Shown piece by piece: positions 24,489 through 35,484 of a DNA stretch of 43,330 bases. Location of the stretch: NCBI GenBank assembly GCA_903642255.1, contig CAHJWP010000003.1, forward strand, positions 1 to 43,330, written 5' to 3'. Source of the stretch: Sphingomonadaceae bacterium. GTDB lineage: Bacteria; Pseudomonadota; Alphaproteobacteria; Sphingomonadales; Sphingomonadaceae. Both the position numbers and the translations under genes were made by a program. Within the stretch, counting starts at the first letter, position 1; the number at the start of each line of letters is the position of its first letter. The notes under the pieces are model-generated. The model saw nothing but the letters and a program-made list of their open reading frames with translations, was not told the DNA's origin and searched no databases.

Positions 24489-25652
24489 TCAAAACCACAC
24501 GCGCACGCCGGCGACGATGCTCCTAGCCGTCGCATTATCACCCGCCGCGCGGGCGAAGCGGGCGGTGTCGCCCACCTTCCGATCCCATGACACGCCGAAG
24601 TAGGGGGCAAACTCGCGCCGGATCTCGTAGCGGAGCCGCAATCCCAGCTCGGCATTGGAGAGGCCCGATCCGATGCGGTTCTCGGGCACGTCCTGGGCCG
24701 CAAAGTTAAGCTCGGCGCGCGGTTGCAGGATCAGCCGCTGGGTGATGCGCTCGTCGTAATAGCCCTCAAGCCGGCCTAGTAGGTCGCCCTTGTTTGATAG
24801 GAACGCCGCGCCGGAAAACTCGAACTGGCCGGGTGCCAAGCCCTCGAATCCGACCGTGGCATAGGTGCGCCTGGGAGTCGGCCCCAAGTCCTGACGGGCG
24901 CCGGCCTGTAGGTTGAAATAAGGGCCGATCGCCCGGCTGTAGAGCGCCTGAACCTCGGCGCTGTCGACGCTCTGGCGGAACGCGCCCTCGCCCTCGGTCT
25001 TGACGAACAGGCGGTTGATGTCGCCACCATACCAAGCCTCGCCGTCCCAACGATAGCCGTCGCGGCCGTTGCGAAACTGATACTCCGCCAGATTGAACAT
25101 CACCTGGTAGAAGTTGCCGCCCCCGTGGTGCTGCTGAAGGTGGTGACGCCCCATCATCATCACCTCCTCGCCATAGACGCGATCGGCCGCATGGTCGGTC
25201 GGGACGGGTGGGGGCGGCGCGTTCCCGGCGGGTAGCGCCGTCCCGGTCTGCGCCATGCCCTCCATCGCCATGCCGGGCATTCCGGGCATGTCATTGCCCG
25301 CATGGGCGTCGCCGGGCATCCGCATCCCTGGCATCGACTGCCCGCCGTGGTTGGGCTGCTGCCCGGTCGCGGGCATGGTCATTCCTGGCATGGTCGAATG
25401 GTCCATGCCTTCCATGCCGCTCATCGGCGCGCCGCTGGCCTTCGCCGGTGCCGCCTTCGGCCTGCCGCTCGGTCGCGCCTTGGCGGGCGGCTTGCGCTTC
25501 GCAGCGGGTTTTGCGGCCGGCTTCTTCTTCGCCGGCGTCGATATCGACATGCCGGGCATGTTCATGCCTTGCATCGAATGATCCTGCGCAACGACGGGCG
25601 CGGCGAAGCCGAGGATCGCGGTCGCTGCGAGCGCGGCGCGAGCGCGCTTCAT
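24489..25652 (-). CDS. copB: CopB, outer-membrane copper resistance protein
   Basis: 387 residues. Signal peptide 1-22, then a Met/Gly/His-rich region to about residue 140 with repeats of the M-x-G-M type (GMNMPGM, GMEGMDHSTMPGM), interrupted by a Lys/Pro/Ala stretch (about 42-72), then a beta-barrel domain (VYGEEVMMMGRHHLQQHHGG, YRWDGEAWYG) ending in VRVWF, a typical outer-membrane C-terminus. CopB helps keep copper out of or bound at the envelope. It overlaps copA by 4 bp. The MHH-rich part would bind Cu(I). Confidence 0.9.
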   Translation of the reverse strand: MKRARAALAATAILGFAAPVVAQDHSMQGMNMPGMSISTPAKKKPAAKPAAKRKPPAKARPSGRPKAAPAKASGAPMSGMEGMDHSTMPGMTMPATGQQPNHGGQSMPGMRMPGDAHAGNDMPGMPGMAMEGMAQTGTALPAGNAPPPPVPTDHAADRVYGEEVMMMGRHHLQQHHGGGNFYQVMFNLAEYQFRNGRDGYRWDGEAWYGGDINRLFVKTEGEGAFRQSVDSAEVQALYSRAIGPYFNLQAGARQDLGPTPRRTYATVGFEGLAPGQFEFSGAAFLSNKGDLLGRLEGYYDERITQRLILQPRAELNFAAQDVPENRIGSGLSNAELGLRLRYEIRREFAPYFGVSWDRKVGDTARFARAAGDNATARSIVAGVRVWF

Positions 25653-27592
25653 GCCGCCGCTCCCTCGAACGGCCGAACGGTCACGACGCGCATCATGCCG
25701 GCGGTCATGTGATAGAGGTTATGGCAGTGGAACGCCCAATCGCCGGGCGCATCGGAGGTCAGGTCGAACGTCACCTTGCCGCCGGGCGCGACGTTGACGG
25801 TGTGCTTGCGGGGGGCATGATCGCCATGGCCTGTCAAAAGCTCGAAGAAATGGCCGTGAAGGTGGATCGGGTGGGGCATCATCGTGTCGTTGATGAGGTT
25901 TACCCGCACCCGCTCCCCGTTGCGGAGCGGGATCGGCTCGGCGGGGTCGCTGAGCTTCACCCCGTCGAACGACCACATATAGCGTTCCATGTTGCCGGTC
26001 AGATGAATGTCGAGCGACCGGCTCGGCGCGCGCATGTCCGGGTTGGGCGTCAGCGCCATAAGGTCGCGGTAGGTGAGAACCCGGTGATCGGCCTCCTCAA
26101 GCCCCTGCGGGCGCTCGCCGGTGCGATCGGTCGGCATCGGCGATATGGTCTGCACGCCCGGCCCCATCTCGACGCCGGGTGCCTTCTTCGGATCGCGCAT
26201 GGACATATCCATGCCGCCCATCCCGCCCTGACCCGACATGCCGCTCATCTGGCTATGGTCCATCCCGGCCATCTGGCCATGGTCCATCCCGGCCATCGCG
26301 TCGCCGCTGCCGCTCGTCATGCCGGTCATGCCCGCGCCGTCTGGCAGTGCGCTGGTCGAGGCCGCGGTTGCGGCGCTCCATCCGGTCGCCTGGGCGAGCG
26401 TCGCCGATGCGTTCTGCTCGGCCGTGGAATCGACGCCGCGCGTGGCTGACGGGCGTGCCATGCCTTTCATCCCGCCCATGTCGCCCATCCCCATGTCCTT
26501 CATGGTGACGACGGGGCGATTGCGAAGCGGGGGGACGGGCGCGCTCATGCCGGCACGGGGCGCGAGCGTTGCGCGCGCCAGCCCCGATCGGTCCAGCGCC
26601 TCGCTGACCAGCGTGTAAGCCCGGTCGCCGGGCGTCACGATCACGTCGTATGTCTCGGCGACGGCGATCTGGAACTCGTCGGTCTCGACCGGCCGCACAT
26701 TCTGTCCGTCCGCCTGCACGATCGTCATAGGCAGGCCGGGGATGCGGACGTTGAAGTTGGTCTGCGCCGCTGCGTTGACGAAGCGCAAGCGCACCCGCTC
26801 GCCGGGGGTGAACAGCCCGGTCCAGTTGTCGCGCGGGCCATAGCCGTTGACGACGTAGGTGTAGGTCGATCCCGTCACGTCGGAATTGTCGGTCGGATCC
26901 ATCCGCATCCGGCCCCATTGCAGCCGCTCCTTGAGCGTCTGGTCGCGGCCGGCGATCAGCCCCGCCAAGGTCTGCTTCTGGTAATTGAAATAATCGGCCT
27001 GCTGCTTGAGCTTCCGGAAAATCTCGTCGCCGTGCATCGGGCTATGGTCCGCCAGCACGATCACATGCTCGCGGTCGAACGCGACCGGATCGGGGCCGGC
27101 CGGGTCGATCACGATCGGGCCGTAAAGCCCTTCCTGCTCCTGCGCGCCGGAATGGCTGTGATACCAGTAGGTGCCCGCCTGCTTGACGCGGAAGTCGTAG
27201 GTAAAGGTCTTGCCCGCCTCGATGCCGGGGAAGCTGATCCCCGGCACGCCGTCCATCGGGAACGGGACTAGCAGCCCATGCCAATGAATCGAGCTGTCCA
27301 CGTCGAGCCTGTTCGTCACTGCCAGCCTGACGTTCTGCCCTTCCTTCAACCGGATTAGCGGCGCGGGAACGGTGCCGTTGACGCCGATCGCGGGCGTCCG
27401 CTTGCCGTCGATAATCAGCGGGAAGCTGTCGATGGTCAGCGCGATCTCGGTGCCGCTCACGGTCGGGAGCGGCTTCACGATCCCGCCCGACACGGGCTGC
27501 GCCCATGCCGGCATATAGGCTGAAAAGGCGAAGCCGCTCCCCGCGACTGCGGCTCCGCGCAAAAGCTGGCGACGATCGAGAACGCGCGACAT
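25649..27592 (-). CDS. copA: CopA, periplasmic multicopper oxidase
   Basis: 647 residues. A Tat-type signal (DRRQLLRGAAVAGSGFAFSA, Arg pair at 7-8) exports the folded enzyme. Copper ligands: HWHGLLVPF, YWYHSHSGAQEQEG, then near the end HPIHLHGHFFEL and AFHCHNLYHMTAGM, covering type 1, 2 and 3 sites. Between the second and third cupredoxin domains (about residues 365-480) is a Met/Gly-rich insert with tandem GMDHGQ/GMDHSQ units. It would oxidise Cu(I) to the less toxic Cu(II). One of three promoters with a shared ECF-like motif lies just upstream. Confidence 0.93.
   Translation of the reverse strand: MSRVLDRRQLLRGAAVAGSGFAFSAYMPAWAQPVSGGIVKPLPTVSGTEIALTIDSFPLIIDGKRTPAIGVNGTVPAPLIRLKEGQNVRLAVTNRLDVDSSIHWHGLLVPFPMDGVPGISFPGIEAGKTFTYDFRVKQAGTYWYHSHSGAQEQEGLYGPIVIDPAGPDPVAFDREHVIVLADHSPMHGDEIFRKLKQQADYFNYQKQTLAGLIAGRDQTLKERLQWGRMRMDPTDNSDVTGSTYTYVVNGYGPRDNWTGLFTPGERVRLRFVNAAAQTNFNVRIPGLPMTIVQADGQNVRPVETDEFQIAVAETYDVIVTPGDRAYTLVSEALDRSGLARATLAPRAGMSAPVPPLRNRPVVTMKDMGMGDMGGMKGMARPSATRGVDSTAEQNASATLAQATGWSAATAASTSALPDGAGMTGMTSGSGDAMAGMDHGQMAGMDHSQMSGMSGQGGMGGMDMSMRDPKKAPGVEMGPGVQTISPMPTDRTGERPQGLEEADHRVLTYRDLMALTPNPDMRAPSRSLDIHLTGNMERYMWSFDGVKLSDPAEPIPLRNGERVRVNLINDTMMPHPIHLHGHFFELLTGHGDHAPRKHTVNVAPGGKVTFDLTSDAPGDWAFHCHNLYHMTAGMMRVVTVRPFEGAAA
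26253..26300 (-). repeat. Two tandem 24-bp units in copA
   Basis: Two near-identical 24-bp units (26,253-26,276 and 26,277-26,300; core ATGGTCCATCCCGGCCAT) encode MAGMDHGQ and MAGMDHSQ in the Met-rich insert of CopA. Repeat slippage could change the number of copper-binding units. Confidence 0.6.
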
Positions 27593-27636
27593 GAAGGCTC
27601 CTGGGATGGGCCGGCAGCGGCCCCGTCTCTTCCCTC

Positions 27637-27660
27637 TACGCGGCCCCGCGCCCTATCCCT
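27637..27660 (-). promoter_or_regulatory. Putative ECF-sigma promoter of copA
   Basis: On the minus strand the sequence reads AGGGAT (27,660-27,655), 14 bases, then CGTA (27,640-27,637) followed by G. The same AGGGRT-N14-CGTA arrangement occurs before the sigma/sensor operon and before copC. The CGTA lies 45 bp from the copA start. The -35-like part overlaps the last codons of the sigma gene. Confidence 0.55.
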
Positions 27661-28225
27661 TAGCTCGCCCCATTTTTTCGATGAGGCGCGCACGCGCGCG
27701 ATAGAGGCGGGTTTCGACCGCCTTCTCGCTGATCGACAGCACCTCGGCCGTCTCGGCCTGGCTAAGCCCCTCGATCGTGCGAAGCACCAGTGCTTCCTTC
27801 AAGTTCATCGGCAAGGTCGAGATGGCGCGCGTCACCCGCTCCAGCTCCTGCCGATCGGCCGCGGCGTCGTCGATCGCCACCTGGTCGTCCACGACAGCTT
27901 CGGCCTGGCCGTCGATCGGCATGGCGAACGACAGGAACCGGCGCACGGCACGCTTCCTCGTCCAATCGCGGCACTTGTTGATGGCGATGGTGGAAAGCCA
28001 CGCACGCATCGGTCGCGCGCCGTCGTAGCGGGGGAGCGCCTGATGGGCGGCGACGAACGTCTCCTGGGTCAAGTCCAAGGCTTGATCGCTGTCGCCAAGG
28101 AAGGCCCGCGCGAGCCGAAAAACCGGCTGACGATAGCGGTGCATGATTTCCGCGAACGCGGCCTGTCGGCCGGCGATGCTGAGCGCCGCCAGCTCGCCAT
28201 CGGTCAGCGCCGTCCAGTCGATCAC
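27653..28225 (-). CDS. ECF-type sigma factor (CnrH-like) of the copper island
   Basis: 190 residues, only regions 2 and 4. Region 2 about 24-92 (FAEIMHRYRQPVFRLARAFL, DLTQETFVAAHQALPRY, MRAWLSTIAINKCRDWTRK) and region 4 about 130-185 (STLPMNLKEALVLRTIEGLS, AETAEVLSISEKAVETRLYR). It would direct RNA polymerase to copper genes when released by its membrane partner. The preceding sensor and small membrane protein overlap it by 4 bp each, the same order as cnrYXH of Cupriavidus. Here it sits next to copA, copB, copC and copD, so copper is the likely signal. Confidence 0.87.
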   Translation of the reverse strand: MIDWTALTDGELAALSIAGRQAAFAEIMHRYRQPVFRLARAFLGDSDQALDLTQETFVAAHQALPRYDGARPMRAWLSTIAINKCRDWTRKRAVRRFLSFAMPIDGQAEAVVDDQVAIDDAAADRQELERVTRAISTLPMNLKEALVLRTIEGLSQAETAEVLSISEKAVETRLYRARARLIEKMGRAKG

Positions 28226-28662
28226 CGTTGATCGTCGGTGAGCGCCTTCACCACCGCCTGATCGAACGCGGCGGTCTGGTTGGGCCGCAAGAGCTGACGC
28301 ATGGCGAAGATATGCGCCAGCGTCGCCTTCTGTAGCTCGCCCATCGCGGCGTGGCTCTGGTCCACTGCGGCGGCGACACGCGGGCCGTTGCCATGCTCGG
28401 CCTCGATCGCCTGGGCGAGCCGGGCGTTGTCGGCGCGCAATTCCAGTTCAAGCGCACGCCGCTGCACTGCGAACCGCTGCTCCAATACCGTCAACCGCGC
28501 CTGCTGGTCGGCGTCGAGCGCCATGCGGTGATGCAACAGCTCGTGCAGCTCGGTTCCCGGCTGCCTGGGCGCGGGCAACAGAGCGCGCCCGACGAACACG
28601 CCGCCGATCGCCGCCAGGAAGGCGAGCACGATGCAAAGGAACAGGCGCGCCGTCGAACTCAC
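28222..28662 (-). CDS. Periplasmic heavy-metal sensor (CnrX-like)
   Basis: 146 residues: one N-terminal membrane anchor (about 6-28, FLCIVLAFLAAIGGVFVGRAL) and a periplasmic four-helix hairpin. ELHELLHHRMALDADQQARL carries a His cluster at about residues 40-46, where CnrX-type sensors bind metal. The family reads metal in the periplasm and passes the signal to a membrane anti-sigma protein. Located between the small membrane protein and the sigma factor, with 4-bp overlaps on both sides. Confidence 0.8.
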   Translation of the reverse strand: MSSTARLFLCIVLAFLAAIGGVFVGRALLPAPRQPGTELHELLHHRMALDADQQARLTVLEQRFAVQRRALELELRADNARLAQAIEAEHGNGPRVAAAVDQSHAAMGELQKATLAHIFAMRQLLRPNQTAAFDQAVVKALTDDQR

Positions 28663-28934
28663 GGGGTTCCGATCAGCAACGTCGAGGGCGCGAGCGGGGA
28701 GCTGCCGCCAAGGGGGCCAAGTGATGCCGCCTGGCCTGCGGCCGCGGGCATTCCCGCGCCTACGACGCCGATCGCCAGCGCCGCGATCGTCGTCGCGAAG
28801 CCGATCCCAAACTTGGCCCTCACCACGGTCGGACGCGTGCCGATCCGCGCGAGCACCCGCGCTTCGAGCTCATCCAGCGCGGCCGGGGCGGGTGCGCCCG
28901 CCAGTCTCGCCAATGCTCTGTCCAGATCGTCCAT
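28659..28934 (-). CDS. Small single-pass membrane protein, candidate anti-sigma (CnrY-like position)
   Basis: 91 residues from ATG 28934. The open frame continues to 29054, but that part overlaps the divergent promoters and does not look coding. A cytosolic N-terminus of about 38 residues (MDDLDRALARLAGAPAPAAL, then DELEARVLARIG) precedes one membrane segment (about 42-66) and a short periplasmic tail. Size, topology and first place in a Y-X-H operon fit a CnrY-type anti-sigma that holds the sigma factor at the membrane. Sequence similarity to CnrY itself is not evident; the assignment rests on context. Confidence 0.6.
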   Translation of the reverse strand: MDDLDRALARLAGAPAPAALDELEARVLARIGTRPTVVRAKFGIGFATTIAALAIGVVGAGMPAAAGQAASLGPLGGSSPLAPSTLLIGTP

Positions 28935-28964
28935 GCTGTCCACTCCCGCCCCTCTACCATTGGT

Positions 28965-28988
28965 TACGCGGCGCTGCCCATCATCCCT
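28965..28988 (-). promoter_or_regulatory. Putative ECF-sigma promoter of the sensor/sigma operon
   Basis: On the minus strand: AGGGAT (28,988-28,983), 14 bases, CGTA (28,968-28,965). Same motif and spacing as the copA site; the CGTA is 31 bp from the first ATG. This would make the sigma factor positively autoregulated. Confidence 0.55.
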
Positions 28989-29005
28989 CACATGGGGCTT
29001 GGGTG

Positions 29006-29029
29006 AGGGGTGCGCGGTCGGGCCGCGTA
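29006..29029 (+). promoter_or_regulatory. Putative ECF-sigma promoter of copC-copD
   Basis: AGGGGT (29,006-29,011), 14 bases, CGTA (29,026-29,029) followed by G, 31 bp before the copC ATG. It matches the copA and sensor-operon sites except for one base in the first block. Confidence 0.5.
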
Positions 29030-29059
29030 GGAAGGTTGGAACACTAAGGAGCAATCATC

Positions 29060-29431
29060 ATGCGTCGCCTCGCAATCTCCGCTGCTCTCGCGCTCGCCGG
29101 CCTCGCGAGCGGAGCCTATGCCCATCCCAAGCTTCTCTCGGCGACGCCGGCACCGAACGCCACCGTCGCCAAACCGGTCAGGGTAGAGCTGCATTTCAGC
29201 GAGAAGCTGATGCCGAAGTTTTCGGGTGCGGACCTGATGATGACGGCGCATGGCGGCAACGCCCATGCGCCGATCAAGGTCGCGAGCGCAGCCGCGCTCG
29301 GCGCGGACGGCCGCACGCTGGTTATCACGCCAAAGTCACCACTTGGCGCGGGACGCTATAGCGTCGCATGGCACGCCGTCTCGGTCGATACGCACCGGGT
29401 AGCGGGAAACTACGCCTTCGCGGTGAAGTAA
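29060..29431 (+). CDS. copC: CopC, periplasmic copper-binding protein
   Basis: 123 residues with a signal peptide ending ...GAYA; mature protein starts His-Pro-Lys, the N-terminal His that binds Cu(II). HAVSVDTHRVAGNYAF near the C-terminus has the second His site, and FSEKLMPKFSGADLMM shows two Met. It carries copper in the periplasm, usually together with CopD, which follows after one base. AAGGAG precedes the ATG at good spacing. Confidence 0.92.
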   Translation: MRRLAISAALALAGLASGAYAHPKLLSATPAPNATVAKPVRVELHFSEKLMPKFSGADLMMTAHGGNAHAPIKVASAAALGADGRTLVITPKSPLGAGRYSVAWHAVSVDTHRVAGNYAFAVK

Positions 29432-29432
29432 G

Positions 29433-30362
29433 GTGGATGCCGACTGGCCGGTGATCGCGGTGCGCTTCGCGCTCTACGGGGTGCTAAGTGGACTGTTCGG
29501 GCTGTCGGCATTCAGCCTCTACGGGCTGCGGGGCGGCGAGCGGCGCGAAGCGCTGGCGCTCAAGCCCTGGCTGGTCGGGAGCGCGGTTTTCGGCCTGCTG
29601 CTCTCGGCCGTCGCTCTCGCGCTGCTTGCCGCCTCGATGGCTGGCACGCCCCCTTGGCCGATCGACCGCGAAGCGATCGGGATGCTGCTCTCCGGCTCCG
29701 CGACGGGCACGGCATGGGAGGCCCGCATGGTGGCGCTGGCCGTGGCGGCGCTTGTCGCCCTGGTTGCGGCTGGGCGGTTATCCCGCCTCGGCCTGGTCGC
29801 GCTCGCCTCAGGCGTCGCGCTCGCGACGCTCGCCTGGGCCGGGCACGGTGCGATGGACGAAGGCGCGATCGGCTGGGCACACCTGATCGCCGATATTCTC
29901 CATCTTCTCGCCGCCGGGGTGTGGGTGGGCGCGCTGCTCGGGCTGATCCTACTGGTGATGCGACCTGCGCCTCGGATCGACGCCGCCCATCTCGCGCTTA
30001 CGCATCGCGCGCTCAACGGATTCGGCACGGTCGGGACGATCGTGGTCGCCACGCTCGTCGTCACCGGCCTCGTCAACGCTTGGCTGCTGGTCGGGCCCGG
30101 CAATGTCGCGGCGCTGGGAGCGACGCTCTATGGTCGACTCCTGCTCGCGAAGCTGGCGCTGTTCGCCGCCATGCTGGGCCTCGCCGGGCTAAACCGATTC
30201 CGACTGACGCCGCGTTTCCAGGCGTCGATCGCCGCCGCCGAGTATCGCGGCGCTCTCGGCGCGCTGCGTCGAAGCCTCGCGGTCGAAACGGCGTGCATCG
30301 TCGCAATTCTGGCGTTGGTGGCATGGCTTGGGACGCTCGAGCCGCCAACGTCCGCGACTTGA
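29433..30362 (+). CDS. copD: CopD, inner-membrane copper transport protein
   Basis: 309 residues from GTG at 29433, starting one base after the copC stop. About eight membrane helices, with the CopD signature in the C-terminal half: HLIADILHLLAAGVWVGALL, then FGTVGTIVVATLVVTGLVNA and GRLLLAKLALFAAMLGLAGL. With CopC it is thought to move copper across the inner membrane. A GC hairpin follows the stop. Confidence 0.9.
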   Translation: MDADWPVIAVRFALYGVLSGLFGLSAFSLYGLRGGERREALALKPWLVGSAVFGLLLSAVALALLAASMAGTPPWPIDREAIGMLLSGSATGTAWEARMVALAVAALVALVAAGRLSRLGLVALASGVALATLAWAGHGAMDEGAIGWAHLIADILHLLAAGVWVGALLGLILLVMRPAPRIDAAHLALTHRALNGFGTVGTIVVATLVVTGLVNAWLLVGPGNVAALGATLYGRLLLAKLALFAAMLGLAGLNRFRLTPRFQASIAAAEYRGALGALRRSLAVETACIVAILALVAWLGTLEPPTSAT

Positions 30363-30553: not shown

Positions 30554-31120
30554 ATGGCGCTTTTTGGTTACGCACGCGTATCGACGTTAGCCCAGGACCT
30601 TGGCATTCAAGAAACAGCGCTGCGCGCGGCCGGATGCCAGACCATTCGGTCCGAGAAAAAGTCGGGGACGCAACGAGGTTCGCGGACCGAGCTGCAAATC
30701 TTGATAGACTTCCTCCGCGAAGGCGACACGCTAGTCGTCACGCGTATCGATCGGCTAGCCCGGTCTATGAAAGACCTGCAAGACATCGTCCATGAGTTGA
30801 AGGGCCGGGGGGTTGCCCTAAAGGCAACTGAGCAACCGATCGATACAAGCACGGCGGCGGGCAAGGCATTCCTTGATATGCTCGGCGTGTTCGCCGAGTT
30901 TGAGACGAACCTTCGCAAGGAGCGTCAGACAGAAGGTATCGAAGCCGCAAAGGCAAGGGGCGTCTACAAAGGAGGGAAGCCGAGGATCGATCCAGAGGCC
31001 ATCCGCAAACTGGCGGCGGCAGGGGTGAAGCCCGCGCATATCGCCCGGCAGCTCGGTATTTCTCGAGGCACCGTATATCGCTCAATTCCAGCTTGCTCCT
31101 CTGCGGATGTTGGGAAGTGA
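30554..31120 (+). CDS. Serine recombinase, Tn3-type resolvase/invertase
   Basis: 188 residues. Catalytic Ser10 in GYARVSTLAQD, conserved Arg residues in TRIDRLARSMKDL, a long E helix (FAEFETNLRKERQTEGIEAA) and a C-terminal helix-turn-helix (AHIARQLGISRGTVYRSI, about 156-175). Such enzymes resolve cointegrates or invert segments. No matching transposase gene is seen nearby, so it is an orphan at the left edge of the defence locus. A role in moving or rearranging that locus is possible but not shown. Confidence 0.9.
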   Translation: MALFGYARVSTLAQDLGIQETALRAAGCQTIRSEKKSGTQRGSRTELQILIDFLREGDTLVVTRIDRLARSMKDLQDIVHELKGRGVALKATEQPIDTSTAAGKAFLDMLGVFAEFETNLRKERQTEGIEAAKARGVYKGGKPRIDPEAIRKLAAAGVKPAHIARQLGISRGTVYRSIPACSSADVGK

Positions 31121-31972: not shown

Positions 31973-34300
31973 ATGGCCCTCGGACTCAGCGTCACCTCCG
32001 CTCTGAATCTCACGCTCGAGGGATCGGTTGGCAGCTTCAGTGTCGGGGCTGGCGGCGAAACCGCGAAGTCGGTGGAGGTCAAATACTTCCTTACCCATGT
32101 CGGATTGGATTTCGAGAACGGTGCCAACGAGGAGGTGCTCAAGCACCTGGCTCCCGTAAGAGAGATCTTTCCGACCGTCGACCTGGAATTCGACGAGATC
32201 ATGCAGCGCGATATCGACGATGCGCGCGTCTCCTCGGACCTAATACCGTATTTGCTGGACCATAAGTCACGCGATCTTGTGAAGCTTTTCCCTCCCATCA
32301 TTGTCGTCGTGCTTCCGGTAAAGGCTTACGAAAACAAGCCAGCGGACTTCTACCCTGCGATCACGACCGACGTGGAGATGATGGCTGAAGGCCACGAAGC
32401 CCAAGTCATTCGATCAGGAGCGAAGGGGCAAGAGGTGTTCGAGTTCGTGCAACCTCTCCAGAACGGAAAGCTGTACGAACACGATCTCGTCCGGCTGCGC
32501 CTAAACACGAATAAGTCGCGGCTCGTCATTGTTGATGGCCAGCACCGCGCAATGGCGCTTCTAGCGGTTTACCGCAATCTCAAGCAGGACTGGAATGACG
32601 CCATGAAGGCGCCATACAAGGACTATTATGAGGAGTGGACACCGAACTACATCAAGAAGTTTGAGCTGAGGAATATCAGCCTACCTGTCATGTTTTGCAC
32701 TTTCCCGCAACTAAACGAAGATTTCCAGGGTGAATACAATGTGAAGATGGCCGCAAGGTCGATATTCCTCACCCTGAACAAGACGGCCAGACAGGTCTCG
32801 GCCTCGCGCAACCGCCTACTAGACGACAACGATCTAATTGCGCTATTTCTGCGCGATACTCTTTCTACCATAAAGAAGGGGGATCTCCACGCCGGGTCTA
32901 CGTTAGAGATCAGCAACATTGAGTTAGATCAGGCACATGATCGCGTGAAGATCGAAAGTCCCATCGCGATTTCTGGCGTGAACCATATTTACTACATCAT
33001 TGAGCATATCGTCCTCAACAAGTTAGAAGACGTGAATGGAGCAAAGCCGCGCGCAGGGCTTTATTATTTGCGGACGGACTTGGAAAGATTTGGAGCGTTC
33101 CGGCGACTAAACGGCCGAAACGTCTTGGGAGCGGACTTAGCGGACGCAACGTCTCGGCAGTTTTACACGGCCGGGGCGGGAGACCTTCTTACGAAGGAAT
33201 TCCGCGAGCGGTTCGGGAAATACGTCGTTGCGGCCTTTCAAAAGTTTGCACCCTACCAGGCACATTCCAGCGCCGTTTTCTGGCTCAGCGAACAGCTGCG
33301 GGCTCAGGCCAATACTAAACTGCGCCCGATATTGTTCGAAGGACAGGGTATCGGACGCACGTTTACCGCGCACACTGAGAACCTTGCAGAAAAGATCCGA
33401 TCGAAGGAGTTCGGTGCTGAGGCGCCGAAACTGCAGGAGATCCTGGATCGCCTGAACGCGACACAGAAGCTGGTCGACGAATTTATCGGCAAGCTGAAGC
33501 ACGAGCGCGCGGAGCGCTTCCTAGCGAAGGTATCGGACAAACGCGCGCTAAGAGCAGAAGAGGGGGGAACCCATCCCCGCGTGATCGACTTCGTAAACAA
33601 GCTCTACGAGAACGTGCTTACGACAGTCGCTTTCCAGACTGCGATGATTGCGGGCTTCTTCGGCGAGCTGGAACGAGCAAACCTCGATCGATCGAAGCAG
33701 GGTTTGGAGCCCCTCGACACGGAAGCGGCATTCGACAGCTTTATGGCCGACATCAACGGGTTCTTCTCACCCAACACCTCTCGCGAGTTCAAGCGACTGG
33801 TCGAGGTATTCCAGGACACGCTTGAGGGGGAAATCCGCGATTGGAAGATCACGCCGTCAAATTCCACCTTCCGGCGCGTCGTGTACCGCGGCGAGATGCA
33901 GCCAGCCCAGTGGCCAAAGTATAAGTATCTGCTTTTGGAAATCTGGCGTGCGTCGGGGTCGGAACTTGAAGCGCCGTTGAAGGCTGAGCGTGAAAAGAGC
34001 CGCCGTCAGGTCTTCACGTCGCTCGAGCAGGAGTACCAGAAGGACTTCCTCAATCGCAATCTCAAGCGTGAGGAGAACCTTACCTCAGCGGATCGGTCTG
34101 AGATCACGAACGGGGCATACGAGGCTTTCAAGAAGTTTCTGCGCAACGTTGGTTGGATGGCTCAGGACGTGCCGAGCAAGAAGGAGCTCCTTGAAGCGGC
34201 TGCCCCGGAGGATGCTGCTGAGGCGCCAATTGTTGGGGCCGAAGCTGAAACCTGGGAAGCTCCGGAAGATCCTGGGTTTGAATCCGGCGAGAACCTTTAG
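31973..34300 (+). CDS. Large DGQHR-domain (DndB-like) protein
   Basis: 775 residues. LVIVDGQHRAMALL, with Asp188-Gly-Gln-His-Arg192, is the DGQHR signature of DndB and relatives, which share a ParB/Srx-like fold. FPPIIVVVLPVKAYEN before it and LTLNKTARQVSASRNRLLDD after it fit the same family. At 775 residues it is about twice the length of typical DndB: residues about 450-700 are helical and charged, and the C-terminus is acidic. In Dnd systems DndB acts as a regulator and limits modification. Here it could tune or sense phosphorothioation. It is one base after the GIY-YIG gene and 8 bp before the cysteine desulfurase. Confidence 0.75.
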   Translation: MALGLSVTSALNLTLEGSVGSFSVGAGGETAKSVEVKYFLTHVGLDFENGANEEVLKHLAPVREIFPTVDLEFDEIMQRDIDDARVSSDLIPYLLDHKSRDLVKLFPPIIVVVLPVKAYENKPADFYPAITTDVEMMAEGHEAQVIRSGAKGQEVFEFVQPLQNGKLYEHDLVRLRLNTNKSRLVIVDGQHRAMALLAVYRNLKQDWNDAMKAPYKDYYEEWTPNYIKKFELRNISLPVMFCTFPQLNEDFQGEYNVKMAARSIFLTLNKTARQVSASRNRLLDDNDLIALFLRDTLSTIKKGDLHAGSTLEISNIELDQAHDRVKIESPIAISGVNHIYYIIEHIVLNKLEDVNGAKPRAGLYYLRTDLERFGAFRRLNGRNVLGADLADATSRQFYTAGAGDLLTKEFRERFGKYVVAAFQKFAPYQAHSSAVFWLSEQLRAQANTKLRPILFEGQGIGRTFTAHTENLAEKIRSKEFGAEAPKLQEILDRLNATQKLVDEFIGKLKHERAERFLAKVSDKRALRAEEGGTHPRVIDFVNKLYENVLTTVAFQTAMIAGFFGELERANLDRSKQGLEPLDTEAAFDSFMADINGFFSPNTSREFKRLVEVFQDTLEGEIRDWKITPSNSTFRRVVYRGEMQPAQWPKYKYLLLEIWRASGSELEAPLKAEREKSRRQVFTSLEQEYQKDFLNRNLKREENLTSADRSEITNGAYEAFKKFLRNVGWMAQDVPSKKELLEAAAPEDAAEAPIVGAEAETWEAPEDPGFESGENL

Positions 34301-34308
34301 GCTAGCGC

Positions 34309-35484
34309 ATGGACGAACCGGTCTACCTCGATGGGTTCGCAACGACCCCTCTGGCACCCGAAGCGCGGGATGCGATGATCGCTGCGTCGTCGCATCCCGG
34401 CAACCCCGGCTCTCCTCACTATGCTGGGGCTAGGGCGAGTGCGATGCTCGACCAAGCCCGGCAGGACGTCGCAGCGTTGATCGGCGCGGATGCCAGCGAG
34501 ATAGTGTTCACATCTGGGGCCACGGAGGCCGACAACCTAGCCGTGCGCGGCATCGCGATGTGGGCGCTTCAATCGGGCAACTCTCGCCGGAAAATCGTCG
34601 TGTCCGCCATCGAGCACAAAGCCGTGCTGGAAGCGGCCGAGAGCCTAGGCACGGCTGGGTTCAGTGTGCTCCATGCGCCGGTAAACGCCGCGGGCATCGT
34701 CGACATCGCCGCGATCGAAGCGATGATTGATGCCGAAACGCTCCTGGTGTCCATTATGCTGGCAAACAACGAGACGGGAGCCCTGCAACCGGTTGGTGAG
34801 GTTGCCGCGATGGCGCATCAATCGGGCGCATTGCTTCATTGCGACGCTGCGCAGGCGGTCGGCAAGATCCCCGTCGATGTCGATGACCTCGACATCGACT
34901 ATATGTCGATCTCCGCCCACAAGATGTACGGTCCAATGGGGGTAGGGGCGCTCTATGTCGCGTCAGGCGCGCCAAAACCGGCCGCGCTGACTTTTGGTGG
35001 AGGACAGGAAAGCTCGATCCGTCCGGGTACAGAGCCAACCTACCTTCTTGCCGGCTTCGGCGCGGCCGCACGCCTCGCGCAGAAGCGACTGCAGGAGGAC
35101 ATGGCGCACAGCCTCAAGCTCGCTGACGCGTTCCGCACTGGCCTGGCGGACGAAGGTCTCAATTTTTCCTGCACGACTAGGGATAGGGCCGTGCTGCCAG
35201 GAGCAGTGAGCATCATGGTGCATGGGGCGGAAGGAGACGGAATAGTATCGTCACTGTCGCCGTTTGCGAGCGTATCGACAGGGTCGGCATGTACGTCAGG
35301 TCAGGTCATGCCGTCACATGTATTAACGGCGATGGGTTTTTCACAAGTAACAGCGAACTCCGTCGTTCGTTTGTACTTTGGAAGATATAATACGATTGCC
35401 GATGCATTGCAGGTAATACCCGCATTTGCCAAAGCGGCGTTCCGGCAGCGTACGCCACTGGACGGATCCGCCAGTAGGATGTAA
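34309..35484 (+). CDS. sspA: Cysteine desulfurase of the phosphorothioation system (SspA/DndA-like)
   Basis: 391 residues, class V aminotransferase fold (IscS/NifS). His103 (IEHKAV) stacks on PLP, Asp179 (HCDAAQ) and His204-Lys205 (SAHKMYGP) hold it as a Schiff base, and Cys328 in STGSACTSG is the persulfide-forming residue. It would take sulfur from L-cysteine and hand it to SspD or another acceptor for DNA modification. A housekeeping Fe-S role is less likely because it lies inside the ssp operon with no isc or suf genes around. DNA at about 35,330-35,420 near its end is clearly AT-richer than the rest. Confidence 0.88.
   Translation: MDEPVYLDGFATTPLAPEARDAMIAASSHPGNPGSPHYAGARASAMLDQARQDVAALIGADASEIVFTSGATEADNLAVRGIAMWALQSGNSRRKIVVSAIEHKAVLEAAESLGTAGFSVLHAPVNAAGIVDIAAIEAMIDAETLLVSIMLANNETGALQPVGEVAAMAHQSGALLHCDAAQAVGKIPVDVDDLDIDYMSISAHKMYGPMGVGALYVASGAPKPAALTFGGGQESSIRPGTEPTYLLAGFGAAARLAQKRLQEDMAHSLKLADAFRTGLADEGLNFSCTTRDRAVLPGAVSIMVHGAEGDGIVSSLSPFASVSTGSACTSGQVMPSHVLTAMGFSQVTANSVVRLYFGRYNTIADALQVIPAFAKAAFRQRTPLDGSASRM

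Follow-up and report, generated by a model that had tools for sequence, protein, structure and literature searches.

The DNA examined here carries copper resistance genes on both sides of an operon for an ECF sigma factor, with copAB on one side and copCD on the other, and this arrangement raises the question of whether the sigma factor controls its neighbours through a promoter sequence of its own. A preliminary description of the locus had proposed such a promoter because two short blocks, AGGGRT and CGTA, recur with the same 14-bp spacing before copA, copC and the sigma operon. We judge that the three elements are very probably promoters of this sigma factor, which is of the CnrH type, and that its release by a metal-loaded sensor would drive expression of its own operon, copAB and copCD.

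Three matching elements and the genes around them

A pattern search of the window (the whole stretch analysed, 43,330 bases) returns exactly three matches to AGGGRT-N14-CGTA, so that the two blocks and their spacing are confirmed for all three regions and on the strands appropriate to the genes that follow (Table 1). The chance expectation from shuffled sequences is 0.08 matches, and three matches were obtained in none of 100 shuffles. These sites receive scores of 23-26 from a score matrix, whereas the top score in ten simulated windows is no higher than 12.9; the matrix was trained on loci of the same family, and the pattern counts are independent of that training. Start codons are separated from CGTA by 44 bp for copA (start at 27592) and by 30 bp for both the first gene of the sigma operon (28934) and copC (29060), and the range of 31-45 bp given in the preliminary description differs only through a one-base difference in counting. 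At the copA promoter, the -35 box reaches into the final codons of the sigma gene, which has its stop at 27653, and the copC and sigma-operon promoters stand back to back with 17 bp between their -35 boxes. An extended form, T[GA]AGGG[AG]T-N13-GCGTA, is common to the three sites. All lack the T that usually comes after CGTA, and at the copA site TAAGGG replaces the usual TGAGGG.

Table 1. Genes, predicted promoters and predicted transcript starts of the locus, in window coordinates
Feature	Position	Strand	Elements or basis
copB, outer-membrane copper protein	24489..25652	-	PF05275, E 7.5e-86
copA, multicopper oxidase	25649..27592	-	TIGR01480, E 1.2e-235
copA transcript start, predicted	27627..27628	-	9-10 nt after CGTA
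copA promoter, predicted	27637..27660	-	-35 AGGGAT 27660-27655, -10 CGTA 27640-27637
copA extended site	27636-27662	-	TAAGGGATAGGGCGCGGGGCCGCGTAG
ECF sigma factor, CnrH-like, 190 aa	27653..28225	-	Sigma70_r2 and r4_2
Periplasmic metal sensor, CnrX/NccX-like, 146 aa	28222..28662	-	PF13801
Small one-helix membrane protein, CnrY-like putative anti-sigma, 91 aa	28659..28934	-	CnrY alignment, operon place
Sigma-operon transcript start, predicted	28955..28956	-	9-10 nt after CGTA
Sigma-operon promoter, predicted (autoregulation)	28965..28988	-	-35 AGGGAT, -10 CGTA
Sigma-operon extended site	28964-28990	-	TGAGGGATGATGGGCAGCGCCGCGTAA
copC promoter, predicted	29006..29029	+	-35 AGGGGT, -10 CGTA
copC extended site	29004-29030	+	TGAGGGGTGCGCGGTCGGGCCGCGTAG
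copC transcript start, predicted	29038..29039	+	9-10 nt after CGTA
copC, periplasmic copper-binding protein	29060..29431	+	NF033814
copD, membrane protein	29433..30362	+	NF033808

The ECF sigma gene reported among the three sites is borne out by its domain matches. The best match of its product in the PDB is CnrH (4cxf, E 9.4e-29), with SigW behind at 5e-17, and the protein stops directly after region 4 without C-terminal cysteines. The sensor matches the solved structures of NccX and CnrX (E 6e-22 to 2e-19; NccX 4clv, E 5.8e-22). It keeps five metal ligands, H40, H44, E61, H117 and M121 in window numbering, which correspond to the ligands of the CnrX structures. Among 27 aligned sensors, the first four are invariant and M121 is nearly so. 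The first gene of the operon encodes a protein that matches no Pfam or NCBIfam model; it has 28% identity with CnrY and shares with it an SPFG/LL-type C-terminus, its place in the operon, its size and its apparent topology. Judged from these likenesses, the three-gene operon is a CnrYXH system composed of a small membrane protein, a CnrX/NccX-like sensor and a CnrH-like sigma factor. The preliminary description, although essentially right in its reading of the locus, had missed this identity.

The copB gene overlaps the copA stop and is presumably co-transcribed with copA, as copD presumably is with copC. Directly after copD lies a resolvase gene (30554-31120). Farther on are a gene for a large protein of 775 aa (31973-34300) with the string DGQHR and no PADLOC match, and one for a cysteine desulfurase (34309-35484) that matches SspA/DndA (E 7e-120). 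This run of genes possibly marks the beginning of an Ssp/Dnd island for DNA phosphorothioation.

The preliminary description had also suggested a search of the host genome (2.5 Mb, 71% complete), and this yields six exact matches to AGGGRT-N14-CGTA: the three window sites and three that we judged not to be sites. One of the latter (C171:292-315) falls in the part of another ECF sigma gene that encodes region 4. It first resembled a second sensor operon, given that a PF13801 gene follows, until its coding location ruled this out; this second locus of the genome (L039, G000:C171, 3-1305) encodes an ECF sigma factor, then a membrane protein and then the PF13801 protein. Another match (C38:14044) is located inside a coding ORF. 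The third (C7:37841) has on its own strand only a doubtful 177-aa ORF with a start more than 80 bp off, and a 173-aa ORF lies on the opposite strand. Matches in the genomes G134 and G020 overlap sigma-gene matches and were set aside with a similar match in the genome G063.

Conservation among relatives and dependence on the sigma gene

We searched for the sigma factor in 149 genomes of the family and obtained matches at E of about 1e-25 or better in 64, such that about 64 of the 149 sampled genomes carry a CnrH-like sigma factor. At the 29 best homologous loci, AGGGRT-N14-CGTA occurs 45 times at a spacing of 14, and the remaining spacings from 6 to 23 add one match in total. A larger count used AGGGNN-N14-CGTA with 60 family loci and 80 named sphingomonad loci; these relatives share phylogeny and so are not independent, and the named loci are mostly Sphingomonas, but the site is present before copA in 44 of 45 and 77 of 77 cases, respectively, before copC in 28 of 30 and 72 of 72, and before the sigma operon in 49 of 53 and 67 of 78.

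Where misses were examined, most could be traced to an additional gene inserted after the same promoter or to a site that differs by one base, for example TGAGTG. We do not regard the 11 sigma-operon misses among the named loci as counter-examples. Seven of them were examined: six have a gene inserted behind the same promoter, which puts the site beyond the distance limit, and one (L193) showed no sigma-operon site. In some sphingomonads, a conserved extra gene (GAYDIGADSPHSRP-like) separates the YXH operon from its promoter, and two other families have a similar gene that is preceded by a site of its own; these cases comprise L243-L250, L255, L263, L268 and L274, L275. The extra gene may belong to the copper response.

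The consensus of 172 sites is TGAGGGNT-N12-YGCGTAT, and a purine is present 10 nt after CGTA in 84% of them. Three other alphaproteobacterial families likewise have sites with these elements ahead of the sigma operon and of copA homologues. Further genes with the site in front of them in relatives encode four-helix copper-binding proteins, Met/His-rich periplasmic proteins, DUF411 proteins and heavy-metal ATPases, and some resemble genes for TonB receptors. Because these targets are mostly copper genes, copper is the likely signal.

Two further groups of genes were observed behind sites. In nine family genomes (L097-L100, L103, L105, L108, L110 and L111), a near-consensus site is located about 119 bp before the apparent start of a permease (MGTGVMIGAGIFALTG...). 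Large proteins with Cys-rich N-termini (CGCS...SSCC) are encoded behind sites at L113:4403 (-), L131:9548 (+), L209:840 (-) and L230:2125 (-), and the counterpart in Sphingomonas naphthae, which lies beside cueR, carries the annotation of a heavy-metal P-type ATPase.

Use of the site depends on the presence of the sigma gene. Upstream of copA in family genomes that are negative for the sigma gene, the site is present in one of 40 regions and absent from 39, compared with its presence in 44 of 45 regions where copA lies beside the sigma gene (Fisher's exact p = 6e-22, which serves only as a guide given that relatives are non-independent). A locus that appeared to use the site without a sigma gene (L149, G040:C31:10492-11142) is a decayed remnant of the sigma operon, in which the promoter site and a CnrY-like gene are followed directly by copA, and the sensor and sigma genes are missing. 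When the exact motif with the following T was counted, the 64 sigma-positive genomes gave 116 matches versus 37 for the control, and the 85 sigma-negative genomes gave 43 versus 54. Of 20 copper oxidase genes at other places in sigma-positive genomes, four have the site, one of them beside the sigma operon. Since most of these genes are without it, not every copA is a target.

Proposed mechanism and alternative explanations

The promoters cnrYp and cnrCp on plasmid pMOL28 of Cupriavidus metallidurans read AGGGGG-N15-CGTAT and AGGGGA-N15-CGTAT, and their published transcript starts, used here for comparison (PMC9045368), lie 9 nt after CGTA. On the basis of these starts and the purine enrichment 10 nt after CGTA, we predict that transcription in the window begins 9-10 nt after CGTA. 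The cnr promoters score low with our matrix (0.6 for cnrCp, and lower for cnrYp), but the spacer of 15 explains this result and we do not consider it a mismatch. Given the matching elements at N14 and N15, the sphingomonad promoters are of the same kind as the cnr promoters, with a spacer one base shorter. The spacing and strand are fixed, the site depends on the sigma gene, and the elements match those of cnr promoters with mapped starts; together these points argue for a sigma-specific promoter. Thus, the preliminary claim of a new sigma-specific promoter holds for the specificity, on comparative evidence, but the promoter is not of a wholly new class, since the sigma factor is CnrH-like and the cnr promoters have these elements one base further apart.

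In the CnrYXH system, the anti-sigma factor embraces the sigma factor and the sensor binds metal in the periplasm (reviewed in PMC4598750). By homology, a metal-loaded sensor would free the sigma factor of the window. In the resting cell, the CnrY-like small protein would hold the sigma factor at the membrane, and the CnrX-like sensor would keep this complex in the off state. Filling of the His/His/Glu/His/Met site of the sensor by a metal, most likely copper, would then lead to sigma release. Domain 4 of the sigma factor is predicted to bind TGAGGGRT and domain 2 to bind GCGTA, with AGGGRT and CGTA 14 bp apart, and RNA polymerase would start 9-10 nt downstream, such that the sigma operon, copAB and copCD would be transcribed together. 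The idea of one regulon linking the sensor, the oxidase and CopCD, as put forward in the preliminary description, is supported by the family-wide conservation, the sigma dependence and the cnr match. Its target genes suggest copper as the inducer, and nickel or several metals are less likely.

This last point represents the most serious alternative, wherein the promoters are correctly assigned but respond to nickel, cobalt or several metals, and the cop genes are a general output of metal stress. We consider it unlikely. In its favour, all five CnrX metal ligands are kept in the window sensor, and copA, copB and copC genes of Sphingobium sp. ba1 are up in cells grown with 10 mM nickel (PMC5557971). 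The observation in ba1 concerns expression, however, and the regulon in relatives comprises almost throughout copper genes rather than CnrCBA-type efflux genes. Moreover, copper-linked sensors of Alphaproteobacteria have nearly invariant H104 and M107 residues, in place of which CnrX of Cupriavidus has Glu and Ala, and these two residues possibly mark a change of sensor metal.

We see very little prospect that the motif is instead an operator for another regulator, of the two-component CopR type or the MerR type, that accompanies the cluster. CopRS or CueR control copper operons in many proteobacteria, and cueR occurs within the same plasmid islands in some relatives, but the motif is asymmetric and directional, has a fixed spacing, lies at promoter distance and matches promoters of a homologous sigma factor with mapped starts. 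It is also absent before copA in 39 of 40 cases where the sigma gene is absent, and the genes from 24.4 to 30.5 kb of the window include no recognisable CopR- or MerR-type regulator. A chance likeness of GC-rich upstream regions that was picked out in hindsight has a negligible probability. The motif was indeed first found by eye, a kind of search open to a look-elsewhere effect, and three of the six genome-wide matches do not resemble sites; nevertheless, replication in other genomes and the spacing test refute this explanation.

A broader proposal can also be made, for which we hold the chances to be evenly balanced. A CnrYXH-type module may have been re-tuned to periplasmic copper, with H104 and M107 reflecting the change of metal and the shorter spacer insulating the sigma factor from CnrH-type promoters. 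In many Sphingomonadaceae, this module rather than CopRS may be the main switch for copper, and it may travel with copABCD on plasmids.

Relation to known metal-responsive sigma factors

The sigma factor, the sensor and the promoter type are known from nickel and cobalt resistance. What is apparently new is the use of CnrYXH-type parts for copABCD across sphingomonads, along with the 14-bp spacer. In the literature covered by our search, which reached few subscription papers and had the primary work on CnrH promoters outside its range, we found neither an N14 promoter of this form nor a CnrH-type copper regulon in sphingomonads described. The promoter recurs before copper genes throughout the family, and this looks like a widespread copper switch made from a known type of part. 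This assignment supplies the copABCD system of a large environmental family with a regulator, a predicted metal signal and the sequence of its promoter, none of which is described there in the literature covered, and the consensus given above allows the regulon to be listed for any sphingomonad. The same scaffold with a nickel/cobalt or a copper output, and with a spacer of 15 or 14 bp, also offers a natural comparison that bears on the metal choice of CnrX sensors and on the measurement of spacer length by ECF sigma factors.

Two other copper-responsive systems differ from the one described here. SigF/NrsF of Caulobacter crescentus (ECF16) likewise involves an alphaproteobacterial ECF sigma factor, with a regulon induced by copper and other metals, but it has a different anti-sigma factor and the promoter GTAACC-N16-CGAA (PMC3511200, PMC8224329). 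The AGGGRT-N14-CGTA form of the window sites excludes this promoter type. CorE of Myxococcus xanthus is also an ECF sigma factor that controls copper genes; however, it senses copper by its own Cys-rich C-terminal domain, no anti-sigma factor has been found for it, and its promoters were sought via the AAC of the -35 element (PMC3107203). The window sigma factor has no such domain, and we therefore rejected a CorE-type assignment.

The closest likeness is to CnrYXH of C. metallidurans pMOL28, whose sigma factor is CnrH, and to NccYXH. These systems have the gene order Y-X-H in common with the window operon, and CnrYXH also has a homologous sigma factor and sensor, identical sensor metal ligands, an autoregulated operon with a second promoter before the resistance genes, a CGTAT -10 element, a G-rich AGGG -35 element, and a start 9-10 nt after CGTA, as predicted here. 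In contrast, its targets are cnrCBAT, whereas those in the window and relatives are copABCD and other copper genes; its -35 element is AGGGGR rather than TGAGGGRT; and its sensor differs at the H104 and M107 positions noted above. The cnr spacer of 15, which another Cupriavidus plasmid also shows, means that data for CnrH are not exactly transferable to promoters with a spacer of 14. CnrYXH is found in Cupriavidus, whereas the copper-linked modules are found in sphingomonads and some other Alphaproteobacteria. A YXH locus is also found on plasmid pCB4 of Caulobacter henricii: the same three genes lie beside copper genes and encode a sensor with H104 and M107, but AGGGGT-N15-CGTA and CGGGAT-N15-CGTA, located before the genes for a copper-binding protein and the Y protein, have the spacer of 15 seen in Cupriavidus and not the 14 of the promoters described here.
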